Source: an uncultured Lentisphaerota bacterium
GTDB taxonomy: Bacteria > Verrucomicrobiota > Lentisphaeria > Victivallales > UBA1829
Reading direction: 5' to 3'
Length of the DNA stretch: 36,438 nt
Assembly: GCA_900320095.1 (NCBI GenBank)
Contig: ONQZ01000023.1
Coordinates: forward strand, 1 to 36,438
Shown piece after piece: positions 11,701 through 35,838 of the stretch. The notes under the pieces are model-generated. The model was not told where the DNA came from and did no database searches. It worked only from the letters and a program-made list of their open reading frames with translations. Made by a program: the position numbers and the translations under genes. Each line of letters begins with the position of its first letter. Position 1 is the first letter of the stretch.

Positions 11701-12001
11701 CCTCGAAATCCGGCTTGATGACCTCGTCAGGCACCTCGTCCGGCTTGCCGAACAGCTGGAATTTCCAGGTGCCTTTCAGGTCGAGCGTGTACTTCGACGG
11801 TGTTTTCCTGTATGCCGCGGCGGACGCTTCATCGTAGAACGTCCCGTAGATCGGGGCATGGCTGAGTTCGCGGTTGACGCCGGTCGTCCGCATATCCGCG
11901 AAATGGTGAGGCTTTGTAATCAGCTGAGGTTCGTCGGCGGCCGCCCCTGCCATCGCGCCCGCGACGGCAAAAGCGAAAAGCGTGCGGAGAACAAGTTTCA
12001 T
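8744..12001 (-). CDS. Secreted LacZ-type beta-galactosidase (GH2)
   Basis: About 1085 residues. The start is placed at 12001 (MKLVLRTLF...), where AAAGGA lies upstream and a clean signal peptide of ~25 residues (cut near GAAADEP) follows. The codon at 12013 would overlap that ribosome site. Domain order is typical of large GH2 enzymes: sugar-binding jelly roll (WKFQLFG, VPSNWQ, GIY), two Ig-like domains, TIM barrel, and the C-terminal beta-sandwich of LacZ (small chain). The acid/base Glu508 is in WSLGNESG and the nucleophile Glu573 in MCEYAYAKGN; FGRGPYENYPDR is a LacZ C-terminal signature. It would remove beta-galactose in the periplasm or outside the cell. It has its own promoter and is not in an operon. 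Specificity beyond galactosides cannot be read from sequence. Confidence 0.9.
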   Translation of the reverse strand: MKLVLRTLFAFAVAGAMAGAAADEPQLITKPHHFADMRTTGVNRELSHAPIYGTFYDEASAAAYRKTPSKYTLDLKGTWKFQLFGKPDEVPDEVIKPDFEDAEWFDMNVPSNWQNDMRVPDRGIYTRDVYLFQKEANPPLLPDANPTGCYRRTFEVPADWLERDVRIVFDGVDSAYDFWVNGHYAGYAEDSRLPSEFAIAKLLKPGKNTLAVKVYRFSTGTFMECQDVWHMSGIYRGVRLMALSPVHLRDWSVKTTFTDPAKNERHGKSDANLDIMAYLETRALPPQQIGNSGSSWYPGVRVKARLVDADGKLVAESEPAKFCGQTSMYGRQTERGAAELSMKIAAPEQWSPETPYLYKLFLHLVDDAGKTLEVQYVPVGFRQIEIRGRDVLLNGQRLIVRGVNRHDFSAKHAFAVTEEDMRLDIETMKKLNFNAVRTCHYPNSDRWYELCDEYGLMVVDETNIETHGMGAQLTRDPAWTPVLIERAQRMVLRDRNHPCIGFWSLGNESGIGASHAAMTAWIRFADPTRPVQYESGNPGPDVSDIFCPMYPRVEQIRRVMNNPNEKRPYIMCEYAYAKGNATGDFFKYWDLVHENKGFHGGFVWDWADKALLNVIAKTGEVNYGYGNDFGENYDYTFMGQHRTQVLNGIVDASVKPHPGAQEVRVCQSPIRFKLDMDLGASDTPRPINQFVPNKLTIINERNNASTAGLKFRWEETCNGDVIKSGVLDVPVIECFESTVVDVPVVTPEPTGVYYLNVYCDGPKHEITRQQFELRSPVVSGNRLIFSRHPMQSGDITIAESDVKETEDTLAIGFLTWSKKTGELVSMKPEGKELLAAPVEEIYYRAPTCNDRMLDADGSFAKDWPPLFDAKRENVKFNWKKTDGKYEVTVSARVGGVINSQITWIVDPAKAQFLNFRQNASFRNEDIHSVARVGMMFPLVEGFETAKYFGRGPYENYPDRFVASLVGRWENRISDMLENYLVPSECGSRGDVRELDLTGENGLHLGAFEIGDKPFRFSALHVSPKDLMSADHSWELKQSKKTWLILDGFHMGVGGDDGWSVSVHPEYVLRPNRYAWSCTLDFRKPE

Positions 12002-12054
12002 GGAACAATCCATTCCTTTGCTGTTTTTTGTAGATTATAATCTGAACATTCGAT

Positions 12055-18524: not shown

Positions 18525-19208
18525 ATGCCAGCCAAACGGACAAAACAGACCATCAAGCGGAAAAACGCCGGAAAGAAATCCGGAAAGACGGGTCCGCAGC
18601 GCGGTTCGCTGCAGATATCCGTTCACCGGACGCAGGCGGTCTTCCTGCTTCTGCTGTTCGCGATCATCGGCATCCTGATGGGCGTCGGCGTATGGAAGGC
18701 CGGAACGTCCATCATGAGCTACATGGACCGTTCGTCACGCTACGACAAAATGATCGTGGCGGCCGGACGGCGCAACGGCGTCTATCCGCCGCTTCTGAAG
18801 GCCGTGATCTGGAAGGAAAGCCGGTTCGACGCCTCGGCGCGCGGCAGCAAGGGCGAGATCGGCCTCATGCAGGTCATGCCCTCGACCGCCGTCAAGGACT
18901 GGGAACGGACGTTCCAGCGTCAGGTGCCGTCCGACGGCGCCCTGATGGACCCCGCGCTCAACATCGAGATCGGGTCGTGGTTCCTCGGCCGCGCGCTCGA
19001 ACGCTGGAAGGACTACAACGACGCCGAAGCGCTCGCGCTCTGCGAGTACAACGCCGGCATCCAGCGCGCCGACGCCTGGAAGCCGCTCCTCCACGACGGC
19101 AAGGTCATGCCGAACATCGACATCGAATCCACGCGCAAATACGTCCGGGACATCCTCGAACGGCGCGAACAATATGAACACGAATGGAAATGGGAGAAAC
19201 TCAAATGA
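18525..19208 (+). CDS. Membrane-anchored lytic transglycosylase (SLT domain)
   Basis: 227 residues. A very basic N-terminus (KRTKQTIKRKNAGKKSGK) precedes one membrane helix (~38-58), so the C-terminal domain should face the periplasm. The catalytic domain has the SLT signatures: Glu98 in WKESRFDASARG, then GEIGLMQVMPSTA and ALCEYNAG. Such enzymes cleave the MurNAc-GlcNAc bond of peptidoglycan, forming anhydro-MurNAc. The domain is short, like MltE or the catalytic core of Slt70, without the large helical ring. Its stop overlaps the next start codon (ATGA at 19205), so it is translationally coupled to the DUF3047 gene. The promoter is probably shared with aspS. Confidence 0.9.
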   Translation: MPAKRTKQTIKRKNAGKKSGKTGPQRGSLQISVHRTQAVFLLLLFAIIGILMGVGVWKAGTSIMSYMDRSSRYDKMIVAAGRRNGVYPPLLKAVIWKESRFDASARGSKGEIGLMQVMPSTAVKDWERTFQRQVPSDGALMDPALNIEIGSWFLGRALERWKDYNDAEALALCEYNAGIQRADAWKPLLHDGKVMPNIDIESTRKYVRDILERREQYEHEWKWEKLK

Positions 19209-19960
19209 ACAGACGTTTCCGCCTCATGAAAACCGCCGCCCTGACCGCCGCCCTCCTCGCTCCCTGCGCCTTCCTCTCCCTCGGATTGGGCGCGAAGGAC
19301 AAGGAACCCGTGCGCCACTGGGACTTCCAGACCTCGAAACTCAACAGCGACAAGGCCCCGGAAGGCTGGAGCTACCGCGGCAAGCCCGGCACACCCGACG
19401 TGAAGTACGAGATCGTCGAGGACAAGGAACTGAAGCACAAAGTCCTGCACATCACCTCCGACAAGGCGTCCGGCGTCATCATGGTCGACTGCTCCGACGT
19501 CGACCTGAAGAAATACCCGATCATGCGCTGGCGCTGGAAAGCCGTCACGCTCCCGACCGGCGCGGACGCCACGGTCAAGTCCAAGGACGACCAGGGCATC
19601 GCCATTTACGTCGGCTACGGCAAGCTCACACAGAGCAGCATCTCCTACAACTGGCAGACCGAGACCCCGAAAGGAAAATCCGGCAGCTCCACCTACAACT
19701 GGGTCGTCGACGTCGACTGGTTCACCCTGCGCGACAAGAACGACAAGATGGACACCTGGTTCGAGGAGGAAGTGAATGTCTACGACGACATGATGAAGAT
19801 CTTCAAGAAGATCCCGTCCGGCTGGGCGCTCAGCATCTCCTCGAACAGCCAGTACACCGCCTCGAAAGCCGACGTCTATCTGGACTACGTCGAGTTCGTC
19901 GAAAAGAAGTCCGCCGAGGCGAAGAAGGACGAGAAGAAGGACGAAAAGAAGGATAAGTGA
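19205..19960 (+). CDS. DUF3047-family secreted protein
   Basis: 251 residues from the ATG at 19205, which overlaps the preceding stop codon and has GGGAG eight bases ahead; the frame is open further upstream. A signal peptide of about 35 residues ends near LGLGAKD. The mature part is a single beta-rich domain with marks of DUF3047: HWDFQTSKL, MRWRWKAVTLPTGAD, KSKDDQGIAIYVGYG, SISYNW and WALSISSNSQYTASKADVYLDYVEF. It resembles a jelly-roll binding fold and is probably periplasmic or outer-membrane associated. The C-terminus is a low-complexity KKDEKKDEKKDK tail. Molecular function is unknown. Coupling to a lytic transglycosylase hints at a cell-envelope role. Confidence 0.8.
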   Translation: MNRRFRLMKTAALTAALLAPCAFLSLGLGAKDKEPVRHWDFQTSKLNSDKAPEGWSYRGKPGTPDVKYEIVEDKELKHKVLHITSDKASGVIMVDCSDVDLKKYPIMRWRWKAVTLPTGADATVKSKDDQGIAIYVGYGKLTQSSISYNWQTETPKGKSGSSTYNWVVDVDWFTLRDKNDKMDTWFEEEVNVYDDMMKIFKKIPSGWALSISSNSQYTASKADVYLDYVEFVEKKSAEAKKDEKKDEKKDK

Positions 19961-19994
19961 CCCCGTCTTCTTCTCCATGTTGTTACCAATTCTC

Positions 19995-20029
19995 CGGGCT
20001 GACGGATCCCCCATCCGCCGGCCCGTTTT
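19995..20029 (+). terminator. Terminator of the aspS operon
   Basis: CGGGC (19995-19999) pairs with GCCCG (20021-20025), and the inner CGGAT pairs with ATCCG. TTTT follows directly. Confidence 0.7.
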
Positions 20030-20150
20030 CTGTCTCCGGGACCCATCATCCGACGCGCACAAAAACGCAAAACACCGGGAAACCGTATTATTTGTAAGCT
20101 CAAATTACTCACTTTTTCGGATTATTTTCGCATTTTTTTTGTTTTTGAGC

Positions 20151-20179
20151 TTGCATTTTCGGTCGAGATGAAGTATAAT
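20151..20179 (+). promoter_or_regulatory. Strong promoter of the six-gene envelope operon
   Basis: TTGCAT (20151-20156) and a perfect TATAAT (20174-20179) with a 17 bp spacer. The same TTGCAT box occurs at 16422 and 35882. Confidence 0.8.
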
Positions 20180-20317
20180 ATGTTAGGACGTGCGAGCAAT
20201 ACATGCCGCACTCCGGCAAAGTTTACGCACCGGACGCCGCGGATGGACCATTTTCCCGGCGGACGGCTTCCGAAGACAACATGCAGGCACCCGAACGCAA
20301 AGGAGGCTTGAAACATC

Positions 20318-21484
20318 ATGAAGAAACTGTATTTCACCGCATTGACGGCGGCCGTGCTGGCGCTCGTCGCGGCGTCGGATTTCGCCGCCGAGGGAACGGT
20401 CACGACGGAGAACGAAAAGAAAACGACCACGACCACGACGACCACGACGACCGTGATCACGGAAACGGTCAGGACAAAGGAGAAGGAAAAGCCCGCGTGG
20501 AAGCCGTTCAAGGTCTGCGTGCTGGACTTCACCTCGATCGACACAGCCGGACAGGTCCGTTTCCTTGATGGCAAGAACAACCCGATCGTGATCCCGCCGC
20601 AGAACACGCTGAACGACGCCGACCACCGGACCATCAACTCCATCATGCAGGGTTATGTCCGCATGATCGACGCGTGGGACAACAGCTGGACGAACTCGGC
20701 GAACCGCGAGGCGCAGATCGACGACAACGTCTTCACGCGCAAGAAGGCGATCGACCTGTACAACACGATCGTGAAGGGCGAGCCGCGTCCGATGGTGATC
20801 GGCGCCGAGTACCTGAGCGCGTACCTGGGCAAGCACAACGACGTCTTCGGGACCATGGACGTCTCGCAAGTCGCCGTCGCGATGCAGAAGCTCCAGAAAC
20901 AAGACGATTTCCCGCGCAATTTCATGCTCCGCATCGCGAAGGAGACCGGAGCCACACACCTGATCTACGGCACGGTCGGAGACATCCACAGCAGGACCCG
21001 TTCGTTCTCCGGCTATGGCATCAACACCAGCACCACCACGTACGAACTGGACGTCACGATCAAGATGATCGACCTCGCGGCGCAGCACAGCGTGTACAGC
21101 AACGTCTACACGGGCAGCTATCGCGAACAGCGTCCGGTCAGCAATGACGCGTTCGACAACAACATCTTCCTGTCGCTCATGAAGTCCGCCCTGGAACAGG
21201 CCGCCGAGGACCTCTACGACGTCTGCAAGGAAGGCCGCAAGAACAAAGTGACCGTCACGCCCATGCCGTACATGATCACGGTCACGCCGACCGCCGGAGA
21301 CGATTTCAAGGCTTCGCAGGCCGTTGTCTATGCCGACGGCATCGTGGTCGGCGCGGGCGGCGAGGCGTTCCCCCTCCCCGAGGGCGCGCACAAGATCGAG
21401 ATCAAGGCCGACGGCTATCAGACCAAAACGCTTACGCTGGACGTGAAGAGCGACCAGACCGTCACCACCACACTGGAACACTAA
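20318..21484 (+). CDS. Secreted PEGA-domain protein with a polythreonine linker
   Basis: 388 residues. A signal peptide of ~24 residues (cut near DFAAEG) is followed by a short acidic region and a run of ten threonines (~36-45). A domain of about 280 residues then starts with KVCVLDFTSID, has HLIYGTVGDI and YELDVTIKMIDL, and resembles CsgG/LpoB-type folds in its beta-strand pattern. The C-terminus is a PEGA domain, with VYADGIVVGAGGEAFPLPEG, HKIEIKADGY and a final TTTLE. PEGA domains occur in envelope proteins, where they probably bind surface polymers. AAGGAGG lies 12 bases before the ATG. It is the first gene of the operon. Function is unknown; an outer-membrane-linked assembly factor is inferred. 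Confidence 0.8.
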   Translation: MKKLYFTALTAAVLALVAASDFAAEGTVTTENEKKTTTTTTTTTTVITETVRTKEKEKPAWKPFKVCVLDFTSIDTAGQVRFLDGKNNPIVIPPQNTLNDADHRTINSIMQGYVRMIDAWDNSWTNSANREAQIDDNVFTRKKAIDLYNTIVKGEPRPMVIGAEYLSAYLGKHNDVFGTMDVSQVAVAMQKLQKQDDFPRNFMLRIAKETGATHLIYGTVGDIHSRTRSFSGYGINTSTTTYELDVTIKMIDLAAQHSVYSNVYTGSYREQRPVSNDAFDNNIFLSLMKSALEQAAEDLYDVCKEGRKNKVTVTPMPYMITVTPTAGDDFKASQAVVYADGIVVGAGGEAFPLPEGAHKIEIKADGYQTKTLTLDVKSDQTVTTTLEH

Positions 21485-21503
21485 TCCGGAAAGGATGACT
21501 GCA

Positions 21504-22667
21504 ATGAACTTCAAAAAACTCATCACCGCGCTTGCATGCGTCGTTCTGTCCGCCGGCGTTTTCGCCGCCGATAAGCTCGCCGTCGCCGAACCCGTCGGAA
21601 AGGGCGGCGTGCCAGCGTCCGACATCGAAGCATTCTGGGGCATCCTGGAATCCTCGATCCAGTCCGATGAATACGCGCTCGTCTCCCGCGGCGCGCTGAA
21701 ACAGATGCTCACCGAAATCGGCCTTACGACCAGTTCCGATCTCGTGAGCCTGAACTCCACGCAGAAAGCGAAGCTCGGCGAAGTCGAGGGCGTGAAATAC
21801 ATCCTCGTCTCCGAGATCAGCAAGTTCGGCACACGCCTGAACTGCACCATGCGCATCCTGGACGCCACTACGGGCGAGATCGACCAGGCGCGCACGGCGA
21901 ACCTGCGCGTGAAGGACCTCGACGAACTCGCCGACGAGATTGAAGCCGCCCTGCAGAAACTCCTGTCCGACGACAAGGCGCTTCACCGTTCCGCGATCCT
22001 CGCGCCGGTCATCAAGGTCTCCGCGCCCGGCTACCTCGCCGACGATTTCAACGTCCGCCTCGAAAACGAGATGCTCGACAAGGGCCTGCGCCTCCAGAAT
22101 CTCCAGTCCGTCGCGAAGATTCTGAAGAAGAACGACATGGACAACCTGAACGAGCTGGAACCGAAGATGTACGTCAAGGCGGGCAAGCTCCTCGAGGTCG
22201 AAATGCTCATCCAGGCCACGATCACGCGCTTCGAGATCGAAAAGATCGCCTACAACGTCGCCGAGACCGGAGCCAGCGGATTCCGCTACATCGGCAACAT
22301 CGAGGGCAGCGTCCGCATCATCTCCGCGCAGACCGGCGAAACGCTCGGCAGCGTCCCGTTCGACGAGCGCGTCGACTTCCGCAGCATCCCGATCTCGACC
22401 CGGCGCGACTGGACCGTCGACGATTACGGCAAGCACCTCATCCGGACCGTCATCCCGCAGAAGGTCATCCCCGGCATCATGAAGTCTCCGGCGTTTAAGG
22501 ACAAAGCCGAAACGAAAGTCGAAGAACAGAAGGCCGACGCGGAAAAGTCCGCCGAACTCAAAGCGCCGCCCGTGAGGCCCTCCGGGATCATCGGCGTGGA
22601 CCGGCTCCTGAAGAGTGCTTCCGAGGGGTCCAAGTCAACGCTGGAACTCGAAAGCGTCGTAGAGTAA
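21504..22667 (+). CDS. CsgG-like periplasmic protein
   Basis: 387 residues from the ATG at 21504; GGAAAGGA is eight bases ahead of it but directly abuts the ATG at 21495. The signal peptide ends near AGVFAADK. The N-terminal domain (KLAVAEPVGKGGV, ALVSRGALKQMLTEIGL, GVKYILVSEISKF, TMRILDATTGEI) has the order of the CsgG/FlgO fold: strand, helix, a Q-helix, then a strand pair that reports whether the component is known. A second, similar half begins near residue 160 (SAILAPVIKVSAPGYLADDF, RLENEMLDKGL, MLIQATITRFE, SVRIISAQTGETLGSVPF), so the protein looks like a tandem of two related domains. There is no lipobox. The C-terminal ~60 residues are charged and disordered. A scaffold or activator role in the envelope is inferred. 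Confidence 0.75.
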   Translation: MNFKKLITALACVVLSAGVFAADKLAVAEPVGKGGVPASDIEAFWGILESSIQSDEYALVSRGALKQMLTEIGLTTSSDLVSLNSTQKAKLGEVEGVKYILVSEISKFGTRLNCTMRILDATTGEIDQARTANLRVKDLDELADEIEAALQKLLSDDKALHRSAILAPVIKVSAPGYLADDFNVRLENEMLDKGLRLQNLQSVAKILKKNDMDNLNELEPKMYVKAGKLLEVEMLIQATITRFEIEKIAYNVAETGASGFRYIGNIEGSVRIISAQTGETLGSVPFDERVDFRSIPISTRRDWTVDDYGKHLIRTVIPQKVIPGIMKSPAFKDKAETKVEEQKADAEKSAELKAPPVRPSGIIGVDRLLKSASEGSKSTLELESVVE

Positions 22668-22671
22668 CACC

Positions 22672-24210
22672 ATGACGATCCGCCGTTTCCTCTCCATCTG
22701 CTCACGCAACATTCTCCCCGCTGCGGCGGCCGGCATCCTCTTTGCCGGCTGCTCCAGCGTCGTGAACTCGCATACGCAGAAAGAGGATATGATGGCGGAT
22801 TATCTGAAGGGCGACAACGCGGGCGCGCTGGACGAGATCGAATACAAACTCCGCGAGCCCGCCTGGTACAACACCTCGGTCGTCGGCACCGGCGACGAGC
22901 TTGTGTGGCGGCTTGAAGCCGGCAGCATGAATTTCCACGTCGGAAACTTCGAGGAAAGCATCGACCAGCTCAAGATCGCCGAAGAACTGATCGAACGCTA
23001 CGACGAACGCGCCGAGGTCAGCGCGCGCGACATCGGAGCCGAGGCCGGAGCCGCCCTCACCAACCTCAACGCCCTGCCCTACCGCGGCTACTGCCGCGAC
23101 CGCATCGCGATCGCCGTCTACAAGGCGCTCGCCTACCTCGGCACAGGCAACGAGGAGGCGTTCCACGCCCAGATACGCCGTCTGCGCAACGAACAGAAGA
23201 AGGTCCAGGACGACTACAGCAAGTTCTTCGAGCAGGAAAAAGCGCGTCTCGACGCGGAAAAGGCGAAGAATCCCGAAGAGGCGAAAAAAGCCGATGCCCT
23301 GGGAAGCATAGAGAAGCTTTCCGGAAGCAAGGACAACGCCGCATTCAAGACCAACATGGACAAGGTCAAGAAGGTCGCGAACAAAGGGTACGGAAACTTC
23401 CTCAACCCAGTGGCGATCTTCCTCTCCGGGCTCGGGTCCGTCCGCGACGGCGAATACGACAATGCTCGCATCGACTTCCAGCACCTCAGCGAGGCCATGC
23501 CGAACAATCCGCTGTTCCGCCAGTATTACGTCACGGTTCTGAAGAACGCTGACCGCGAGATTCCTGAAAACCTCGCCGACGTCCAGCCGTTCGATTTCCC
23601 GCTGGACCGGGACTGCGTTTTCGTGGTCTTTGCGAACGGACGGAGCGCGGCGTTGGAGGAGAATTCCATCTACTTCCCCGTCATGGCTGCCTGGCCCTCG
23701 TGCGAATTCTACGACGCGCCGTTCCAGAATCTGGAAGCCGAAGCCGGGGGAAAGAAATACAGCTCGCTGATCCTCGCCGACATGGACGGCATCCTCGCGC
23801 AGGAGTTCGAGGAACGCCTCCCCGGCATCATCACGAGGATTGTTCTCGGCACACTCATCAAGGAGGCCGCCTACTACGCCGGAATCGCCGTGATCGCCGC
23901 GCAGAAGGACATGGATCCGGCAATCCAGGCCGCCGCGCTTGCGACAGTCGCCGTCGGAGGCGCCGCCTACCGTGCTGCCGTGAACACCGCCGACACGCGC
24001 GGCTGGGAGATACTGCCGAAGGAATTCCAGCTCACGCAGTTCCCGATGCCGGGAAACCGGCAGGTCGACCTCAAACTCAATCTGAACGGAGGGATGACAG
24101 TTTCCAAATCCCTGCAGCTCCCCGCGGACTGCAAATCCGCCATCATCTTTGTCGATGCACCCAGCGTGCAGAACGTGGCGTTCCACGTCCTGCCGATCAA
24201 ATCTAAATAA
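22672..24210 (+). CDS. COG3014-like lipoprotein
   Basis: 512 residues with a lipoprotein signal; the lipobox LFAGC puts the lipidated cysteine at residue 27, followed by SS, which favours the outer membrane. The N-terminal half is helical and TPR-like: a GDNAGALDEIEYKL repeat-type helix, FHVGNFEESIDQLKIAEEL, and a long charged coiled segment at ~165-215. The C-terminal half has a hydrophobic region, including AAYYAGIAVIAAQKD, and beta-rich sequence ending with LPADCKSAIIFVDAP. This matches my memory of the COG3014 lipoproteins found beside LpoB and YcfL genes in Vibrio and Shewanella. It starts four bases after the previous stop with a poor ribosome site, so it is probably coupled. The exact function is not established. 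Confidence 0.75.
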   Translation: MTIRRFLSICSRNILPAAAAGILFAGCSSVVNSHTQKEDMMADYLKGDNAGALDEIEYKLREPAWYNTSVVGTGDELVWRLEAGSMNFHVGNFEESIDQLKIAEELIERYDERAEVSARDIGAEAGAALTNLNALPYRGYCRDRIAIAVYKALAYLGTGNEEAFHAQIRRLRNEQKKVQDDYSKFFEQEKARLDAEKAKNPEEAKKADALGSIEKLSGSKDNAAFKTNMDKVKKVANKGYGNFLNPVAIFLSGLGSVRDGEYDNARIDFQHLSEAMPNNPLFRQYYVTVLKNADREIPENLADVQPFDFPLDRDCVFVVFANGRSAALEENSIYFPVMAAWPSCEFYDAPFQNLEAEAGGKKYSSLILADMDGILAQEFEERLPGIITRIVLGTLIKEAAYYAGIAVIAAQKDMDPAIQAAALATVAVGGAAYRAAVNTADTRGWEILPKEFQLTQFPMPGNRQVDLKLNLNGGMTVSKSLQLPADCKSAIIFVDAPSVQNVAFHVLPIKSK

Positions 24211-24221
24211 GGAGAACAACC

Positions 24222-24680
24222 ATGAAGAAAATATGCATGATCGGATGGTTCGCCGCCGTCGTGATGCTGGCCGCGTGCCAGAACTCCGTGAACACCATCG
24301 AAAACGCGGACAAGACCATGACGCCGAACTATGTCAACGACTCCCGTTTCGTGACCGACGGCTTCCTGAAACGCCGTCTCGCGCTCCAGAGCCTCACGCT
24401 GGGCCAGACCGCCGACGGCTACAAGCGCGCGCAGGTCGAAGTCACGAACGTACGTACCGGCGTCGCTGCGCAGTTCTGGAGTTCCATCACGCGCGAGAAC
24501 CCGTACCACATCCGCTACCGTTTCACCTGGTTCACCGAGGACGGCATGGCGGTCAACCACACGGTCCTCGCCGACTGGCAGGACGCCGTCATCATCCCCG
24601 GCGAGACGCTCTTCCTCCAGTCCGTCGCCCCGAACAAGAATTGCAGCGATTTCAAAATCAGCCTCAGAGAGGCAGACTAA
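24222..24680 (+). CDS. ycfL: YcfL-like lipoprotein (DUF1425)
   Basis: 152 residues; AAGGAG is seven bases ahead of the start. The lipobox MLAAC places the acylated cysteine at residue 19. The mature domain is a single small beta-rich fold (RLALQSLTLGQTADGYKRAQVEVTN, YRFTWFTEDGMAV, ETLFLQSVAPNKNCSDFKISLRE) typical of YcfL/DUF1425. In Escherichia coli the gene sits next to lpoB. Periplasmic, probably outer-membrane anchored. Its position between COG3014-like and LpoB-like genes is the main support for the assignment. Molecular role unknown. Confidence 0.8.
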   Translation: MKKICMIGWFAAVVMLAACQNSVNTIENADKTMTPNYVNDSRFVTDGFLKRRLALQSLTLGQTADGYKRAQVEVTNVRTGVAAQFWSSITRENPYHIRYRFTWFTEDGMAVNHTVLADWQDAVIIPGETLFLQSVAPNKNCSDFKISLREAD

Positions 24681-24696
24681 CAGAAAGGATATGCAC

Positions 24697-25344
24697 ATGA
24701 ACGCACGTTTTCTGATCCTCGGTCTTTCCGCCGCCGGAGCCCTCGCGCTCGCCGCGTGTGAAAGCAATAACACCGTCATCTACGACCCCGCCACCACCAA
24801 GACCGGGCTCCGCGCCACCAAAACGGTCTCCAGCGAGGAAATGCGCGAAGTCACCGTCGCCGCCGTCCAGGAGGCCATGACCAACGCCAAATTCACCTCA
24901 TTCTTGAGAAAGTACAGGGAGGAAGTCGGCGATCCGGACGCCTGCCCCATTCTGAAGCTCGACAAGACCATCAACAACACCGACGATCCCGACCTGAACA
25001 CCTCCGAGATCACCGACATGCTCTTCGAAGAGCTCCTGAACGCCGGCAAAGTCGAGGTCACTCTGGCCGAGGGCGCTGGCCGCACACAGGCTATCGCCGC
25101 CTCCCGCGACCTCGAATACGATGAGAACTTCGACCAGAGCACAGTCGCGAAACGCGGCACACTCCAGGCCGCCCGCCTCGTGCTCCGTCCGAAAGTCACC
25201 TCCAACTCCGTGCGCGACGGCGGCACGCAGGCCGTGACCCGCACCTTCGTGCTGGAAATGGCTGACGTGCAGACCGGCCTGGTCATGTGGCGCTTCACCA
25301 AACAGCTCGCATTCATGAAGAAAAGAAGCTCCGTCGGCTGGTGA
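24697..25344 (+). CDS. lpoB: LpoB-like penicillin-binding-protein activator lipoprotein
   Basis: 215 residues from the ATG at 24697; AAAGGA is seven bases ahead, while the ATG at 24691 is too close to it. The lipobox LAAC gives acylated Cys21. The mature domain has the LpoB/CsgG-like strand-helix order: EMREVTVAAVQEAM, ILKLDKTINNTDDPDLNTSEITDMLFEELLNAGKVEVTL, a helix, AARLVLRPKVTSN, and the C-terminal strand pair FVLEMADVQTGLVMW. In gammaproteobacteria LpoB reaches through the peptidoglycan layer to stimulate the bifunctional synthase PBP1b. No PBP gene is in this window. The C-terminus (FMKKRSSVGW) agrees with the usual end of the family. The activator function is inferred by homology. Confidence 0.78.
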   Translation: MNARFLILGLSAAGALALAACESNNTVIYDPATTKTGLRATKTVSSEEMREVTVAAVQEAMTNAKFTSFLRKYREEVGDPDACPILKLDKTINNTDDPDLNTSEITDMLFEELLNAGKVEVTLAEGAGRTQAIAASRDLEYDENFDQSTVAKRGTLQAARLVLRPKVTSNSVRDGGTQAVTRTFVLEMADVQTGLVMWRFTKQLAFMKKRSSVGW

Positions 25345-25389
25345 TCCGGCTCCCGGTCCATTGTCGCATTGACTGATCCGCCCTCCCCT

Positions 25390-25416
25390 CTCCCGCGCCA
25401 CATCGTGCGGCGGGAG
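25390..25416 (+). repeat. Stem-loop before the last gene of the envelope operon
   Basis: CTCCCGC (25390-25396) pairs with GCGGGAG (25410-25416) within a 117-base gap between the LpoB-like gene and the next lipoprotein gene. There is no T-tract, so partial attenuation or RNA protection is more likely than full termination. Confidence 0.45.
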
Positions 25417-25461
25417 CGCGGCGGCATCGGAATTACTCTCATCGAAAAGGAGATCCCTCCC

Positions 25462-26220
25462 ATGCGCAACTTCATCCTTTCCGCGGCATTCGCCGCAGCG
25501 GCGCTCGTCCTGAGCGCCTGCACCAACATCGCCAAGTTCGACTACGGCGCCGCCCCCGGCACGCTCGCGAAACTCCGCGAACCCGGATCCGCCACGAAAT
25601 CCGTCGCCGTGATGCCCTTCATGGACCAGCGCGGCGTGGGGATTATCGACCCCGGCCAGGCCCCGGCCCACGATGTCGGCGACCACGGCTCCTTCTTCCT
25701 CGGCTTCATCCCGCTCATGCCCTTCGGGTATGTCGAGAAGACCCAGCCCGAGAACAGCGAGGACTTCGTTTCCCTCGGGCGCTTCCACTTCGACGTGCAG
25801 AACGACCTGGCCGCCGCCTCGATCGCGAGTCTGAAGAGCTCCGGCCTCTTCAAGAACGTCACTAAGGCAAACAACGCCGCGCAGGCAGCGAACGCCGATT
25901 ACATCTGGCGCGGCTCCGTGACCAGCACGTTCTACCGCGGCCGCATGTTCTCCTACGGCATCACATACTGCTTCTCGCATATCCTGTGGATCGTGGGGGT
26001 TCCGTACGGCAGCTCCACCAACGAACTCGGCGTGAAGTTCGAGCTGGTCGACCGCGCCAGCGGAAACGTCGTCTGGGAGTACAACTACCTCAACAGCGAC
26101 TACCTCAACCACTGGATCTATGCCCGCGTCGGCAAGGACGTCAGCATCTATCCGCGGCTGATGAAGGAAGCCATGAACAGTGCGCTGTACAAGCTCTCGC
26201 AGGAGATGCCCGACCTGTAA
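25462..26220 (+). CDS. Envelope lipoprotein of unknown function
   Basis: 252 residues from the ATG at 25462, with AAGGAG nine bases ahead; the frame is open upstream but lacks signals. The lipobox LSAC gives acylated Cys20. Visible marks are KSVAVMPFMDQRG, a hydrophobic insertion (GSFFLGFIPLMPFGYV), SLKSSGLFKNVTKA, ADYIWRGSVTSTFYRG and KFELVDRASGNVVWEY. This resembles the strand order of LpoB/CsgG-type and related lipoproteins, in which a prompt for a favourite partner, the variable component and a read-out strand follow in order. I do not recognise the exact family. It is the last gene of the operon and is followed by the terminator at 26255. An outer-membrane complex role with its neighbours is inferred. 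Confidence 0.72.
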   Translation: MRNFILSAAFAAAALVLSACTNIAKFDYGAAPGTLAKLREPGSATKSVAVMPFMDQRGVGIIDPGQAPAHDVGDHGSFFLGFIPLMPFGYVEKTQPENSEDFVSLGRFHFDVQNDLAAASIASLKSSGLFKNVTKANNAAQAANADYIWRGSVTSTFYRGRMFSYGITYCFSHILWIVGVPYGSSTNELGVKFELVDRASGNVVWEYNYLNSDYLNHWIYARVGKDVSIYPRLMKEAMNSALYKLSQEMPDL

Positions 26221-26254: not shown

Positions 26255-26291
26255 CGCCCCCGGTCCCGTTGAAGGATTCCGGGGGCGTTTT
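26255..26291. terminator. Strong bidirectional terminator
   Basis: CGCCCCCGG (26255-26263) and CCGGGGGCG (26279-26287) form a perfect 9 bp stem, followed by TTTT on the plus strand. On the minus strand the sequence continues ATTCTTTTCG. It closes the envelope operon and probably the convergent adhesin gene. Confidence 0.85.
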
Positions 26292-26316
26292 GTATCTTCG
26301 TTTTTTATGTTGGCGC

Positions 26317-29300
26317 TTACAGCGAGGCGAGGATGCCTTTCGTGCGCATGGCTTCCGTCTCGAATACCGCTTCCGCCGTACTTTCGAGGAACGCGCCAAG
26401 TGCGACATATTCTTTGAACTTCTCGGAACCGTCGTCGCCGAACTTGAGCGTGATCTGATCCGCCGCGACGCCGGAAACTTTGACGCTGTTTCCGCCGTCG
26501 GTGTAGGTGAGCGTCGACGCATCCCACTTGGAAAGATCGCCCGACTCGAACCACAGCGTGACCGTGCCGGTCGCGGCCTGGGAAACAACGTCGCTGCCCC
26601 AGTTGCCGCCGAACGAGAAGATGTCGTTTCCGCCGCCGCCCGCGAGCGTGTCGTCGCCCGCGCCGCCCGCGATCAGGTCGTCGCCGGTCCTGCCGACGAT
26701 CCAGTCGTTTCCGGCGTCGCCGAACAGCGAATTGCCGCCCGCCGCGCCCCAGATCACGTCGTCGCCCGCGCCGCCGCGCACGGTCATCCCGGCGAGCTCG
26801 GCGGTGTAGCGTTCGCTGGTCATGTCGACCACGTCGTCGCCCGCCCCCGCGCGGACTTCGCGGATCACGTTAAGACGCGCGGCGTCGCCGAATTCGGAGT
26901 AGATGTCATCCATGAAGAGCGCGTCGCCGTTAGCCGTGTCGGAGAGATACAGGATGTTCGCGTCGGAGCCCGTGAACGTGTCGCGGATGCGGTTCTTGCC
27001 CGCGATGCTCGCGGTTTCGCCCGTCACGGTGTTCTTCGCCTGATAAAGTGCGCTCCATTTATCCGAATCCGAAACGGTCGCAAAGAAGATGTCCGCGCGG
27101 CCGTTGCCGTTGGATACGACCTGTCGCGGCGCACTTTCGGCGGACGTCCACGAAGCGGATGCATGCGTGAACTCGCTCCCCGCCTCCGTCACCTGGCAGG
27201 AATACGCGCCCGTCGCGGAGACGACGTCGAACGCCTTGCCGTCCGTGGCGATGCGGATCGCGTTGTCGAACGAATCGCCCTGCGCGATCTCGGTCCAGAA
27301 GCCCGAGCCGGAAGTGTCGCCGGACCAAGCGATGATCGACCCGTCCTTCGAAACGGCGGGAACAAGGTCCTGCAGGATCTGATGCACGACAGTCAGCACG
27401 CCGTCATCCGCCTGGTTCAGACGCAGCAGCATGCCGTTCCCGATGAGTGCGATGTCGTTTCCGAGAAGACCGTCCTTCAGCGTGAAGACGTCGGACAGGT
27501 CTTTGTTATCAAGTTTGACGGACAGACTGCCGGAGAACGTCCCGGCGGTCGCGGCAAACGTCGCGATGGCAGGTCCGCCATCCAGCGGACTCGTGCATTT
27601 CATAAGATAGGAACCGCTCCCGCTGAACGCGCCGAGATTGTTGACCAGGGCATCGTATCCAAGACCGAGACTGAACGTGATCTTGCCGTCGTTCACAACC
27701 GAGGCGCCGAGCGTATTTACGCCCGCGAACGCCAGCGATCCACTGTTATAGACGGTGTCGGACGCGGTCGCGAGGACCACGTTTTCGAGCTTCATGTTTC
27801 CGGCGTTCCAGACCGCGCCGCCCGCCTTGGCGGTATTGCCGCTGAATGTGCAACCGGAGATCGTGACGACGCCCGTGGAGTTCGCGTCGTTCCAGACCGC
27901 GCCGCCCTGATCCGTCGTTTCGCCGCCGTTGCCGGTGAATGTGCAATCATTGACCGTGAGCGCTGCGGACGCCCAAGTGTGCGAGATCGCGCCGCCGTAG
28001 AGCGCGGTATTGGAATCGAACGTCGCCCCGGAGATGCCGGACGCGGTATTGCCGGAATCCCACACTGCGATCGCGCCGCCGTCGTTGCCCGCGCTGTTCG
28101 TACTGAACGTACCGCCTGTCACAGTCAGAGGTCCGAAGCACTGGCAGATCGCTCCGCCGCCGTAGCTCGCCGTGTTGCCGGAGAAATCTGTGCCGGAGAC
28201 AGTCGTCAAATCCGTCATTCCGGTCTGGATATAGATGCCGCCGCCGTAGGCCGCCGCATTATCGTTGAATTCTGCACCGTTCACAGTCAGATTGGCGGTG
28301 TCGCTGCTGCCGTAGGCGATGAACGTGGCAATCGCGCCGCCCTGCACCGCGCTGTTCGCGCTGAACGTGCCGCCTGTGACGGCCATGACGCCGTTTTGCG
28401 TGTTGGCGACCGCGCCGCCGAACGACGTGTAACTGTACGTATCCGGGTCGGAGACTTGGTTCCCCGTGAAAACCGAGTCCGTCACGGTCAGCGTCGCATA
28501 ATTGTAAATCGCGCCGCCCTGATAGTTGGCGGTGTTCGCGTCAAACACGCATCCGTTGACCGTGGCCGCACTCACTGCGGTGTTGTATGTGTCGTTATAG
28601 ATCGCGCCGCCGTTGCGGGATGCGTTCGTGCTGAACGTGCTGCCCGAGATCGAAGCGGTCGCGCCGTTGTGGATCTCGATCGCGCCGCCGCCCGGTGCAT
28701 ATTCCTGGGTCGGGTCGCCCGCGGTCGTATTGCCGGAGAACATCGCCCCGGTCACAGTCATGTTGCCCGCGTTCTGCTGGATCGCGCCGCCGAAATACGC
28801 AGTATTGCCGGAGAACGTGCCGCCCGTGATCCTGTTGTTCGAGTACATCAGCGCCATAGCACCGCCCGCCGCGCCGGTCCCGTTCGCGCTGTTGCCCGCA
28901 AAAACGGTATCCTCTACGGAAAGCGTGCCGCCGTAGGTCTCGATCGCGCCGCCGTGCCCGGTGTAGCCGTTCAGGGGATTCACAGCGCAGCCGGAGAACG
29001 TGCCGCCCGTGAGGAGAATCGCGCCCGGACCGTTCTGCGTGTAGTCTGCGGATGAAAGGCAGATGCCCGCGCCATACCAGCCGGAGGCATTGACGCAAAT
29101 CGGAGCGCCGGAGAAGGTGCCGCCCGTGATATTGATATTGGCGGTCTTTCCGCCTTCATCGACAAAAACCTGCCCGTCGGCGTACACTTCGATTCCGGTA
29201 AACGTCGCGTCTTTTCCGACGAACGCGGTGTTATAATCGCATTTCTGGACTTCTTCGTCCTCGTAGTCGATGTACGTGCCGATGTTCACGCCGCTGATCT

Positions 29301-29379
29301 CGGTCTTTTCCAGTTTGAACGTGTCGTCCAGATACAACTGCACGAAGCCGTCTTTGAATTCTTTTGTGACAACTGCCAT
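26317..29379 (-). CDS. Large Pmp-like repeat adhesin with C-terminal RTX repeats
   Basis: 1020 residues. The start is set at 29379 (MAVVTKEFKDG), with AAAGGA nine bases ahead; the open frame extends upstream but reads as random basic sequence. There is no N-terminal signal peptide. Residues ~60-560 contain many beta-helix repeats of the chlamydial polymorphic-outer-membrane-protein type, with recurring GGAI and FSGN/FxxN motifs. Around residues 830-920 there are RTX calcium-binding nonapeptides (GGAGDDVIWG, GDAGNDWI, GGAGDDTLAG, GGGGNDIF). The last ~100 residues are beta-rich and acidic. No signal peptide plus C-terminal RTX repeats is the pattern of type I secretion substrates; no type I secretion genes are in this window. 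It is probably a surface or secreted adhesin. Confidence 0.85.
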   Translation of the reverse strand: MAVVTKEFKDGFVQLYLDDTFKLEKTEISGVNIGTYIDYEDEEVQKCDYNTAFVGKDATFTGIEVYADGQVFVDEGGKTANINITGGTFSGAPICVNASGWYGAGICLSSADYTQNGPGAILLTGGTFSGCAVNPLNGYTGHGGAIETYGGTLSVEDTVFAGNSANGTGAAGGAMALMYSNNRITGGTFSGNTAYFGGAIQQNAGNMTVTGAMFSGNTTAGDPTQEYAPGGGAIEIHNGATASISGSTFSTNASRNGGAIYNDTYNTAVSAATVNGCVFDANTANYQGGAIYNYATLTVTDSVFTGNQVSDPDTYSYTSFGGAVANTQNGVMAVTGGTFSANSAVQGGAIATFIAYGSSDTANLTVNGAEFNDNAAAYGGGIYIQTGMTDLTTVSGTDFSGNTASYGGGAICQCFGPLTVTGGTFSTNSAGNDGGAIAVWDSGNTASGISGATFDSNTALYGGAISHTWASAALTVNDCTFTGNGGETTDQGGAVWNDANSTGVVTISGCTFSGNTAKAGGAVWNAGNMKLENVVLATASDTVYNSGSLAFAGVNTLGASVVNDGKITFSLGLGYDALVNNLGAFSGSGSYLMKCTSPLDGGPAIATFAATAGTFSGSLSVKLDNKDLSDVFTLKDGLLGNDIALIGNGMLLRLNQADDGVLTVVHQILQDLVPAVSKDGSIIAWSGDTSGSGFWTEIAQGDSFDNAIRIATDGKAFDVVSATGAYSCQVTEAGSEFTHASASWTSAESAPRQVVSNGNGRADIFFATVSDSDKWSALYQAKNTVTGETASIAGKNRIRDTFTGSDANILYLSDTANGDALFMDDIYSEFGDAARLNVIREVRAGAGDDVVDMTSERYTAELAGMTVRGGAGDDVIWGAAGGNSLFGDAGNDWIVGRTGDDLIAGGAGDDTLAGGGGNDIFSFGGNWGSDVVSQAATGTVTLWFESGDLSKWDASTLTYTDGGNSVKVSGVAADQITLKFGDDGSEKFKEYVALGAFLESTAEAVFETEAMRTKGILASL

Positions 29380-29644
29380 AGCTGCGGTCCTTTCTTTTGT
29401 TTTTGTGCAGGAACGCAGGCACGGCGGACGATGCGGCACGCAGCCCGGCCGCCATGCGGCGGCGAACGGACTGTCCGCGATGCTTCCCCGTCTTGTGTTC
29501 CGGGCACAATTCCGCGTTTTGCGGAGGGAACTTGAACGGAGCGGGGATCTGGCTCGCCGCACCATGCGGCTCACAGTTGCGCGACAGTCCGTGAATTTCA
29601 CACGGTTCACCCGGATTCCGTCCGATTGAATGTTGTTGCAGATT

Positions 29645-29673
29645 AATATACCATAGGACTGTTTTTTTTTCAA
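29645..29673 (-). promoter_or_regulatory. Promoter of the repeat adhesin gene
   Basis: On the minus strand TTGAAA (29668-29673) and TATATT (29645-29650) with a 17 bp spacer that includes a run of A residues. Transcription would start near 29638, about 260 bases before the start codon. Confidence 0.65.
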
Positions 29674-29765: not shown

Positions 29766-29793
29766 TTGAAAACGGCTTCCCGCGCGCTATATT
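29766..29793 (+). promoter_or_regulatory. Promoter of the GH2 gene at 29856
   Basis: TTGAAA (29766-29771) and TATATT (29788-29793) with a 16 bp spacer, about 60 bases before the start codon. Confidence 0.65.
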
Positions 29794-29855
29794 ATAGATG
29801 TGTCCGGAAAGTATCAACCGATTCGCCTCGAAACGAGGTCAGAAAGGATTTTGTC

Positions 29856-32039
29856 ATGAACTCACATTTCTTCCGCCGCGGACTCTCCGCCTTCGCCCTC
29901 CTCGGCACGGCCGCCGTGCTCGCCGGAGCCATGAACCAGGGATGCGTCAGCGATAACATCGAAGACGCCGCTGCGCCTCAAATCGAACCCGTCACGGCAT
30001 CCGTGCAGGAGATCAAAACGCTCGACTTCAAGCGCCGGAACGATCCCGACTACGCGCAGGTCACACTCCCCCACACCATGAACGCCACGAACGGCACCGG
30101 CACGATCCCGCTCGAACGCGGCGACGCCTATTACCGCTACGCACTCGACCTGAAGGAATCCGACCTCGAAAAAGACTACATCATCCAGTTCGAGCAGGTC
30201 GGCCAGACCGCCGAAATCTCCCTGAACGGCAATCTCCTCCACACAAACCGCTGCGGCTACACCCCGTTCGCCGTGAAGCTCGACGGCCTCAAAGCCGGCG
30301 AAAACGAGGTCACGATCCACACGAACAACCGCATCGACAACAACATGATCCCGAACAGCGGCGACTTCAATTTCTGCAACGGCGTCTACGGCCGCGCCTA
30401 CCTGCTCAGCGGAAACGTCTATTTCGACCCGCAGGTGTACGGCATCGACAAGATGCACGTGATCCCGCTCTCCATTAAACAGGACCAGGTCCGCTTCGGC
30501 ATCGCGACCTCCGTCTTCAGCAAGGAGATCAAAAGCGCCGCGCTCGTCACCACCACGCTGAAGGACAAGGACGGAGGCGTGGTCCTCTCCGAGATTTCCC
30601 CGCTCGCAATCGGGCCCGGCGGCAACGAATTCTACCGCGAATACACGTTCAAGAATCCGATCCTCTGGCAGGGCAAGGAGAACCCGTACCTCTACACGGT
30701 CGAGGTGACGCTGAACATGGACGGCGAGGACATCGACCGCATCAGCATCCCCTACGGATTCCGTGACATCCGGCTGCCCTACAGCGCCAAGGACAACCTC
30801 CTCCGCCTCAACGGCAAGAAGGTCAGCCTCCGCGGCGTCTCCTACCACCAGGACGCCCCCGGCGTCGCCGTCGCCATGACCGACGAGGACCGCAAACGCG
30901 ACCAGGAGATCATGCTCGAGCTCGGATTCAACTGGCTCCGCTGCGCCCACTATCCGCACAACGTGCGCGAGTTCGCCGACTACGACCGCATCGGCATGAT
31001 GTGCCAGACCGAGATCCCGTGGGTCAACGGCTTCACGAACACCCCCGCCTTCGAGCAGAACGTGATGCAGTTCACGCGCGACATGATCGTGAACCTCTAC
31101 AACCACCCCAGCATCATCCTCTGGGGACTCTCCAACGAGATCTTCTACTCCTGGAGCGGCGAGGAGTGCGTCCGCGTCCATAACGACGCCTACACCCTCG
31201 CCCGCCGCCTCGACCCTTACCGACCCGTCGGACACGTCGAGCGCGAACAGGAAGTCCGCAACGGCGCGAGCAACGGCCTCATCTCAGACTGGTTCGGCAA
31301 CAACACCTATCCCGGCTGGTACTCCCCCACCGACTTCGAGCACACCAAGGACGGCGTGACCGACACCCAGGTCCTCGCCAAGTTCTACCTCCACGGCATC
31401 ACCGAGTACGGCTACGGCGGAAACCCCTTCCAGCACAACTCCGACTTCATGACGCTCCACCCGAAGAGCAAGAACAACAAGACCGGAACCAGCAACGACA
31501 CCGGCGGCTGGCTCCACCCCGAGGAATACCAGACCCTCGGCCACATCTACTCCTGGAACAAGATCGCCGGCACGCCCGAGGGACGCCGCCTCACCTTCAC
31601 CTCGCTCTGGATCCTCTTCGACTTCGCCGTCGGCAGCCGCAACGAAGGCGACACCCCCGGCATCAACGACAAGGGCCTCGTGACGCGCGACCGCCAGACC
31701 AAGAAGGACGCGTACTATTTCTACAAGTGTGTCTGGAACCCCGAAAACGAGGTCCATATCATGTCCACGCGCTGGGAAAAGCGCGACACGAAGGACATCG
31801 CGATCACCGTCTTCTCCAACGCCGAAAAGGTCGAGCTCTACCAGAACAAGAGGCTCGTCCAGACACTCGACAAGCCCACCGACACCATCAACAACGTCGT
31901 CTGGAAGTTCGACCCCGTGCAGTTCAGCGACAAGGTCCTCGAGGACGGCGCTTACGACGAGTTCTCCGCGGTCGGCTACCGCAACGGCAAGAAGACCGGC
32001 CAGCACAACGCCCTCTTCACCTCCACCGCGAGAAACTGA
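29856..32039 (+). CDS. Secreted GH2 glycoside hydrolase
   Basis: 727 residues from the ATG at 29856, with AAAGGA seven bases ahead; the upstream part of the frame overlaps the promoter. An N-terminal signal sequence is present (FALLGTAAVLAGA); a cysteine follows in MNQGC, so a lipoprotein is possible although the lipobox is poor. Domains run in GH2 order: sugar-binding jelly roll (VTLPHTMNA, YYRYALDL, EISLNGNLLHTN), Ig-like domain, TIM barrel. Acid/base Glu428 is in GLSNEI and nucleophile Glu517 in ITEYGYGG. NWLRCAHYPHN is the GH2 signature of the barrel. It is shorter than LacZ and lacks the small-chain domain, nearer to the BgaB/beta-galactosidase-glucuronidase subgroup. Substrate uncertain. 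It is followed by galE. Confidence 0.88.
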   Translation: MNSHFFRRGLSAFALLGTAAVLAGAMNQGCVSDNIEDAAAPQIEPVTASVQEIKTLDFKRRNDPDYAQVTLPHTMNATNGTGTIPLERGDAYYRYALDLKESDLEKDYIIQFEQVGQTAEISLNGNLLHTNRCGYTPFAVKLDGLKAGENEVTIHTNNRIDNNMIPNSGDFNFCNGVYGRAYLLSGNVYFDPQVYGIDKMHVIPLSIKQDQVRFGIATSVFSKEIKSAALVTTTLKDKDGGVVLSEISPLAIGPGGNEFYREYTFKNPILWQGKENPYLYTVEVTLNMDGEDIDRISIPYGFRDIRLPYSAKDNLLRLNGKKVSLRGVSYHQDAPGVAVAMTDEDRKRDQEIMLELGFNWLRCAHYPHNVREFADYDRIGMMCQTEIPWVNGFTNTPAFEQNVMQFTRDMIVNLYNHPSIILWGLSNEIFYSWSGEECVRVHNDAYTLARRLDPYRPVGHVEREQEVRNGASNGLISDWFGNNTYPGWYSPTDFEHTKDGVTDTQVLAKFYLHGITEYGYGGNPFQHNSDFMTLHPKSKNNKTGTSNDTGGWLHPEEYQTLGHIYSWNKIAGTPEGRRLTFTSLWILFDFAVGSRNEGDTPGINDKGLVTRDRQTKKDAYYFYKCVWNPENEVHIMSTRWEKRDTKDIAITVFSNAEKVELYQNKRLVQTLDKPTDTINNVVWKFDPVQFSDKVLEDGAYDEFSAVGYRNGKKTGQHNALFTSTARN

Positions 32040-32114: not shown

Positions 32115-33131
32115 ATGAAGATCTTAGTCACCGGCGGCGCCGGATACATCGGAAGCCACACCTGCGTCGAACTCCTCAACAAGGGCATGGACGTGGTCGT
32201 CATCGACAACCTCGACAACTCCAACGCGGAATCCCTGAACCGCGTCGAAAAGATCACCGGGAAGAAAGTCGTGTTCTACGAGGCGGACGTCCGCGACCGC
32301 GCCGCGCTCGAACGCATCTTCACCGAGCACAAGATCGACTGCACCATCCATTTCGCCGGACTGAAGGCGGTCGGCGAATCCGTCGCGAAGCCGCTGGAAT
32401 ACTACGACAATAACCTGAACTCCACGATCACGCTCGCCGAGACGCTCCGCAAGTTCAATTCCAAGAAGATCGTGTTCTCCTCCTCCGCCACGGTCTACAA
32501 TGGCGCGAACAAGATGCCGCTCGCCGAGGACAGCATCACCGGCGGCTGCACCAACCCCTACGGCTGGACCAAGTACATGTCCGAACAGATCCTCCGCGAC
32601 CTTGCCAAGGCCGATCCCGAGTTCACCGTGGTCCTGCTCCGCTACTTCAACCCCGTCGGCGCGCACGCCAGCGGCCTCATCGGCGAAGACCCGCGCGGCA
32701 TCCCGAACAACCTCATGCCGTTCATCTCTCAGGTCGCCGTCGGCCGCCGCGACCACCTGAACGTCTTCGGCAGCGACTACGACACCCCGGACGGGACGGG
32801 AGTGCGCGACTACATCCACGTGGTCGACCTCGCGCGCGGACACGTCGCCGCCATCGACTTTATGCAGGAAAACAAGGGCGAATTCGTGTTCAACCTCGGC
32901 ACAGGCGTCGGCTACAGCGTGCTCGACATGGTGAAGGCGTTCGAGAAAGCCAACGGCATCAAGATCCCCTACGAGCTCGTCGACCGCCGTCCCGGCGACC
33001 TCGCCACCTGCTACTCCACCCCCGCAAAGAGCGAAAAGGTCCTCGGCTGGAAGGCGGAATTCGGGCTGGAGGACATGTGCCGCGACTCCTGGAACTGGCA
33101 GAAGAACAACCCAAACGGATTCAACAAGTAA
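32115..33131 (+). CDS. galE: UDP-glucose 4-epimerase
   Basis: 338 residues, the standard GalE length. The N-terminal Rossmann motif is [10 protein letters not shown], followed by [33 protein letters not shown] is the GalE signature, the serine is in FSSSATVY, and the catalytic YxxxK is YGWTK with Tyr149 and Lys153. [20 protein letters not shown] and [14 protein letters not shown] are further GalE-specific marks. It interconverts UDP-galactose and UDP-glucose in the cytoplasm, the last step of the Leloir pathway and a source of UDP-galactose for surface sugars. AAGGA lies about ten bases ahead. It lies between two GH2 genes, so galactose released by these enzymes is its likely input; galK and galT are not in the window. 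Confidence 0.95.

Positions 33132-33339: not shown

Positions 33340-35838
<2,499 letters not shown>

Follow-up and report, generated by a model that had tools for sequence, protein, structure and literature searches.

LpoB, its neighbours and a six-gene operon in Victivallales

Among the closest described relatives of the operon considered here is the hinT-ycfL-lpoB-thiK locus of Escherichia coli, whose LpoB reaches the class A penicillin-binding protein (PBP) PBP1B by means of a tether of ~145 Å (PMC6220978). Under stringent cut-offs, Typas et al. found LpoB and the UB2H domain to be strongly conserved only in enterobacteria (PMC3060616). Here we describe an operon with an LpoB-family gene on a 36,438-nucleotide stretch of DNA (hereinafter the window; assembly GCA_900320095.1, contig ONQZ01000023.1) from an uncultured Lentisphaerota bacterium of the order Victivallales in the phylum Verrucomicrobiota. 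Its source genome comprises 2.75 Mb in 80 contigs at a completeness of 92.7%, and the nearest named relatives are rumen Lentisphaeria/Victivallales assemblies. The window shares with the E. coli locus the LpoB family (PF13036) and the neighboring YcfL, but unlike that locus it also has a gene for a further lipoprotein, C3014, which presumably corresponds to COG3014. The operon is conserved as a set of six genes, and this set probably serves something other than the activation of a class A PBP.

The conserved unit spans positions 20318-26220 and encodes, in this order, a PEGA-domain protein, the tandem-domain protein CsgG2, C3014, YcfL, LpoB and the lipoprotein Lip8. Among 28 Lentisphaeria loci from named genomes, whose C3014 proteins mostly share 45-89% identity with the query, the first five genes follow this order on one strand in 24, and the exact six-gene order is present in 18; the deviating loci include two with extra LpoB copies ahead of Lip8 and four without Lip8 alone. 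C3014 turns up in 83 of the order's 137 genomes and in 154 of 388 sampled across the phylum. The distant Verrucomicrobiota have a five-gene form (PEGA/CsgG-like/C3014/YcfL/LpoB) in the same order with diverged sequences, in which the CsgG-like protein has ~300 residues and in several cases a CsgG match. Farther afield, the C3014-YcfL-LpoB trio occurs in Aeromonas between hinT and thiK (hinT-C3014-YcfL-LpoB-thiK), where the lipoprotein gene lying between those for HinT and YcfL encodes a homolog of C3014. An Azospirillum plasmid also has the trio, with genes for a DUF6844 protein and a weakly LpoB-like protein downstream. The order of the trio on one strand is thus kept in the window, Aeromonas, Azospirillum and most Verrucomicrobiota loci read, and with it goes an ADxRxWxxLP motif in C3014 (NTADTRGWEILPKEF in the window, ADTRSWLTLP in Aeromonas and ADTRSWTSLP in Azospirillum). 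However, the Aeromonas and Azospirillum clusters have neither the upstream PEGA/CsgG2 pair nor Lip8, and Azospirillum has a different downstream pair, for which no match to CsgG2 or the PEGA protein was obtained. The original prediction, made from the window alone, had recognized a homolog of the gammaproteobacterial trio, extended by three secreted proteins, and these genes do stay together across many genomes; its association of the trio mainly with gammaproteobacteria does not hold, given the presence of the trio in Azospirillum and throughout the Verrucomicrobiota.

Class A PBPs in genomes with the operon

That prediction had also suggested an activator of a peptidoglycan synthase and proposed a check for a PBP1-type enzyme with a matching docking domain. 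We used PF00912, a domain of both class A PBPs and monofunctional transglycosylases; the same scan that detected such proteins in 27 of the order's 137 genomes detected them in 10 of 14 controls. The other 110 genomes of the order all have SEDS proteins, as does every one of the 137, and loss of class A PBPs has apparently been frequent in the order. Within the order, 71 genomes have C3014 no more than 7 kb from a strong LpoB (hereinafter the module genomes), and no PF00912 protein was found in 53 of them; 28 of these 53 belong to the high-quality subset, including the single-contig genomes G023 and G135. Within the order we found no association of the module with PF00912 (Fisher p=0.09, or 0.41 once the window's own genus is left out). 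Likewise, PF00912 was not found in 109 of the 154 C3014-bearing genomes of the phylum sample, nor in any of the 17 distant non-Lentisphaeria genomes whose loci were read, while C3014 is present in just two of the 56 genomes with two or more PF00912 proteins.

The class A PBPs that do occur point the same way. The window genome has a single one, a PbpC-like protein (NCBIfam PBP_1c, 1.8e-137, slightly below the cut-off), and all 12 PF00912 loci read in the order and class encode homologs of it. The PbpC-like gene of the window genome overlaps a gene for an alpha-2-macroglobulin (contig G000:C66; L066 711-2900 and 2897-4906), and such a gene adjoins the PF00912 gene in nine of the 12 loci. A UB2H search of the window genome, at its 92.7% completeness, returned Mfd and UvrB as the two best matches and no PBP1B/UB2H; across the order, the matches are mostly frames of ~660-750 or 1,070-1,150 amino acids, sizes typical of UvrB and Mfd. 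The check thus yielded one PbpC-like enzyme and no docking domain, and a role in PBP activation is contradicted because most carriers of the module have no class A PBP and those examined are PbpC-like. A different role for LpoB outside the enterobacteria also agrees with the strong conservation of LpoB and UB2H in enterobacteria only (PMC3060616).

Organization of the locus and its proteins

The eight genes that the original prediction had listed are confirmed and lie in the order it gave, all on the forward strand downstream of the aspartyl-tRNA synthetase gene (aspS). The first two fall outside the conserved unit: an SLT lytic transglycosylase (18525-19208; Pfam SLT, 4e-20) and, overlapping it, a secreted DUF3047 protein (19184-19960; Pfam, 2e-20) are separated from the PEGA gene by 357 bases. 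Together with aspS they flank the block in just four loci, all from near relatives, and a combined transglycosylase and lipoprotein operon, which the prediction had envisaged as one envelope set, was accordingly rejected. From PEGA to LpoB the intergenic gaps measure 4 to 11 bases throughout; 117 bases precede Lip8, whose start is most likely the ATG at 25462 and not position 25369. An intrinsic terminator follows Lip8 on the same strand (~26255-26305), with a hairpin (RNA fold of -26 kcal/mol, z=-3.3) and a U-run. No sigma-70-like promoter was seen at the operon, a result that is weakly informative in this phylum.

C3014 (22672-24210; lipobox FAGC), YcfL (24222-24680; LAAC), LpoB (24691-25344; LAAC) and Lip8 (25462-26220; LSAC) are lipoproteins in which the residue following the lipobox Cys is never Asp. 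In E. coli, a non-Asp residue at this +2 position directs a lipoprotein to the outer membrane, and by analogy all four may be sorted there. The PEGA protein (20318-21484) and CsgG2 (21495-22667) have ordinary signal peptides without a conserved lipobox and are taken to be periplasmic.

CsgG2 consists of two tandem domains of the CsgG/LpoB/TolB-N fold. The Pfam CsgG match is weak (9e-5), and because a genome-wide scan for the CsgG family at an E-value of 0.1 did not recover the protein, it is the fold evidence that carries the assignment. An AlphaFold2 model built from 16 sequences (pLDDT, the per-residue confidence, 76; pTM, the predicted template modelling score, 0.50) has two tandem alpha/beta domains, and in Foldseek searches it matched GNA1162, FlgT, the C-terminal domain of LpoB, PelC and CsgG. 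The fold is common to CsgG2 and to CsgG, PelC, FlgT, GNA1162 and the TolB N-terminal domain, but CsgG2 differs from these in carrying it in tandem within one protein, at 7-23% identity, and in having no known substrate or partner genes. In the model, the second domain includes a long extended strand pair (residues 237-277). The PEGA protein, which has a Sec signal peptide, may contain a CsgG/FlgT_M-like middle region; its C-terminal PEGA domain is sub-threshold in the window (Pfam, 9e-4) and is matched at 1e-10 to 1e-13 in homologs. Members of this family have an invariant FxGYGIxT insert, which we take to lie near the place of the membrane hairpin in CsgG. Searches of the PEGA protein and of Lip8 against solved structures by sequence returned nothing useful, and profile comparisons among LpoB, CsgG2 and the PEGA protein gave no usable signal in any pairing. 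Lip8, which is part of most six-gene loci, is distantly LpoB-like (hhalign, 83% probability, E=8.5e-6), in a poor alignment that partly covers the signal peptide, so that the relationship is weak. Accordingly, the earlier proposal of a CsgG-like strand order in at least two of the three added proteins stands for CsgG2 and is weakly supported for the PEGA protein and Lip8.

C3014 was predicted (pTM 0.80) to combine a tetratricopeptide repeat (TPR)-like helical N-terminal half with a C-terminal beta half interrupted by a long helical pair. A fold search against solved structures returned partial TPR-like matches only, none at E≤0.001. The beta domain (residues 315-512) was predicted with fair to good confidence and matched no solved structure; going by the model, it may represent an uncharacterized fold. 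YcfL is recognized by its Pfam family (YcfL/DUF1425, 4e-13) and by profile matches to PDB 4gio and 3o0l.

The LpoB of the window is identified by Pfam (5e-23) and by TIGR02722 (2e-26; 93.2 bits, under the NCBIfam equivalog cut-off of 110.55), with a weak profile match to the E. coli and Salmonella LpoB structures. An alignment with E. coli LpoB, which has a Pro-rich tether of ~60 residues and no GW tail, reveals the reverse arrangement in the window protein: a short linker and a C-terminus ending in GW. The long tether is also missing in LpoB from Aeromonas, Azospirillum and two other Verrucomicrobiota. LpoB proteins linked to C3014 usually carry a C-terminal tail with the pattern K..(R/K)..(S/T).GW: among 83 distinct LpoB-type sequences from loci also carrying C3014, 52 terminate in GW and 20 in another G-x pair (GY, GF, GD, GL, GM or GK). 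The Aeromonas protein likewise ends in GW and that of Azospirillum in SW, and a search of plasmid records for more gammaproteobacterial LpoB tails added few. The tail is without counterpart in E. coli LpoB and in a divergent LpoB type (L073-L079). Judged from its sequence, the GW tail might be a docking peptide, possibly for C3014. Some operons of relatives contain LpoB-like genes tandemly multiplied to three copies (L059 5727-7652; L053 9107-10931; L055 9046-10989).

Outside the module, the loci of relatives have no recurrent neighbors except occasional Tad and kinase genes; Tad/Flp genes, or a T2SSE ATPase with a Ser/Thr kinase, adjoin it in some of them (L128 10123-16011; L057 4060-6731; L044 10191-14374). 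In the window, a gene convergent to the operon (26317-29673, reverse strand) encodes a large secreted protein that combines Chlamydia PMP repeats with calcium-binding repeats of the RTX type. The region is flanked by two genes for NAD-dependent sugar epimerases (4154-5155 and 32115-33131) and three for family 2 glycoside hydrolases (8744-12013, 29766-32039 and 33340-35838).

A candidate outer-membrane assembly

We favor, at a probability of roughly 55%, the view that the operon encodes an outer-membrane-tethered periplasmic assembly whose client is other than a class A PBP. In such an assembly, the CsgG-fold subunits would assemble into a ring or patch like those of PelC, FlgT and CsgG, with C3014 as a TPR scaffold and the lipoproteins as anchors, and LpoB would dock via its conserved C-terminal GW tail, perhaps onto C3014. 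The complex could then support or regulate the outer membrane-peptidoglycan layer through its client; it may serve a SEDS-linked synthase, an export channel or, more generally, the link between outer membrane and peptidoglycan. On this model, the long-tethered E. coli LpoB and its UB2H partnership would represent a derived branch, found in a genome from which C3014 has been lost. Several points weigh against our proposal: the contact between the tail and C3014 is a guess, and the end of the tail varies (GW, GY, GF, GD, GL, GM); the CsgG-fold assignment is weak for the PEGA protein and Lip8; the outer-membrane sorting call borrows an E. coli rule; and the counts of tails and PBPs come from related genomes that are not independent and therefore overstate the number of events.

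An activator of a class A PBP after the fashion of E. coli LpoB-PBP1B, with extra subunits, would account for the strong matches to the LpoB models and could draw on the one class A PBP present in the window's genus. As a general role it is largely refuted by the module genomes and distant genomes without PF00912, the rarity of C3014 where such proteins are multiple, the PbpC-like nature and alpha-2-macroglobulin neighborhood of the window genome's own PBP, the Mfd and UvrB identity of its best two UB2H matches and the missing long tether of LpoB, and we regard it as very improbable. Regulation of peptidoglycan synthesis through pairs of SEDS proteins and class B PBPs (RodA-PBP2 or FtsW-FtsI) would fit the kinship with LpoB and offer an available synthase wherever class A PBPs are missing; however, SEDS proteins are universal in the order, which makes the match uninformative, and neither a docking domain nor gene linkage was found, leaving this an unlikely alternative, though one to be taken seriously. 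An outer-membrane secretion assembly, the other option of the original prediction, could take the form of a CsgG- or PelC-type export channel or of its periplasmic collar, which appears rather doubtful. Such a structure would be in keeping with the CsgG, PelC and GNA1162 matches of the CsgG2 model, with the long strand pair in its second domain and with the invariant insert of the PEGA protein, but curli or polysaccharide substrate genes do not recur beside the operon, the signal peptides of the CsgG-like proteins are ordinary ones that lack a conserved lipobox, and no pore-forming hairpin was demonstrated. A CsgG-type channel would have a lipidated subunit with two transmembrane hairpins; the CsgG2 model has one extended strand pair. 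The last alternative, an accessory module of Tad/Flp pili, derives from the CpaB/RcpC, secretin, FHA-T2SSE and T2SSF genes that adjoin the module in L128 and L057 and from related reading frames in L127 and L129. Yet RcpC occurs in 103 of the 137 genomes of the order and is on another contig in the window genome, most module loci have no adjoining Tad genes, and some module genomes (e.g. G065, G080 and G093) have no RcpC match; a Tad link, being seen at few loci only, was rejected as a general explanation, and we consider it extremely remote.

Returning to the proposed assembly with a non-class-A-PBP client, we suggest a broader reading more tentatively: the trio and its CsgG-fold partners might form an outer-membrane complex not yet described, with an ancestral function unrelated to class A PBPs, PBP1B activation being a late recruitment after the loss of C3014. 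On this reading, much of the family would be misleadingly named 'penicillin-binding protein activator LpoB'. The component families are known, but no description of the operon, of its distribution across Verrucomicrobiota, of its conflict with the PBP-activator label or of the GW tail appears to exist in the literature searched, where COG3014 is not named and YcfL appears alongside LpoB in passing only; the suggestion in the original prediction that the set is new is upheld within that literature.

LpoB-family proteins are automatically annotated as PBP activators, and here, because the linked LpoB is conserved in many genomes without a detected class A PBP, that label predicts a partner that seems not to exist. 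This in turn renders testable an old question, namely the function of YcfL and of the COG3014-like lipoprotein, and the role that LpoB had before it came to activate PBP1B.

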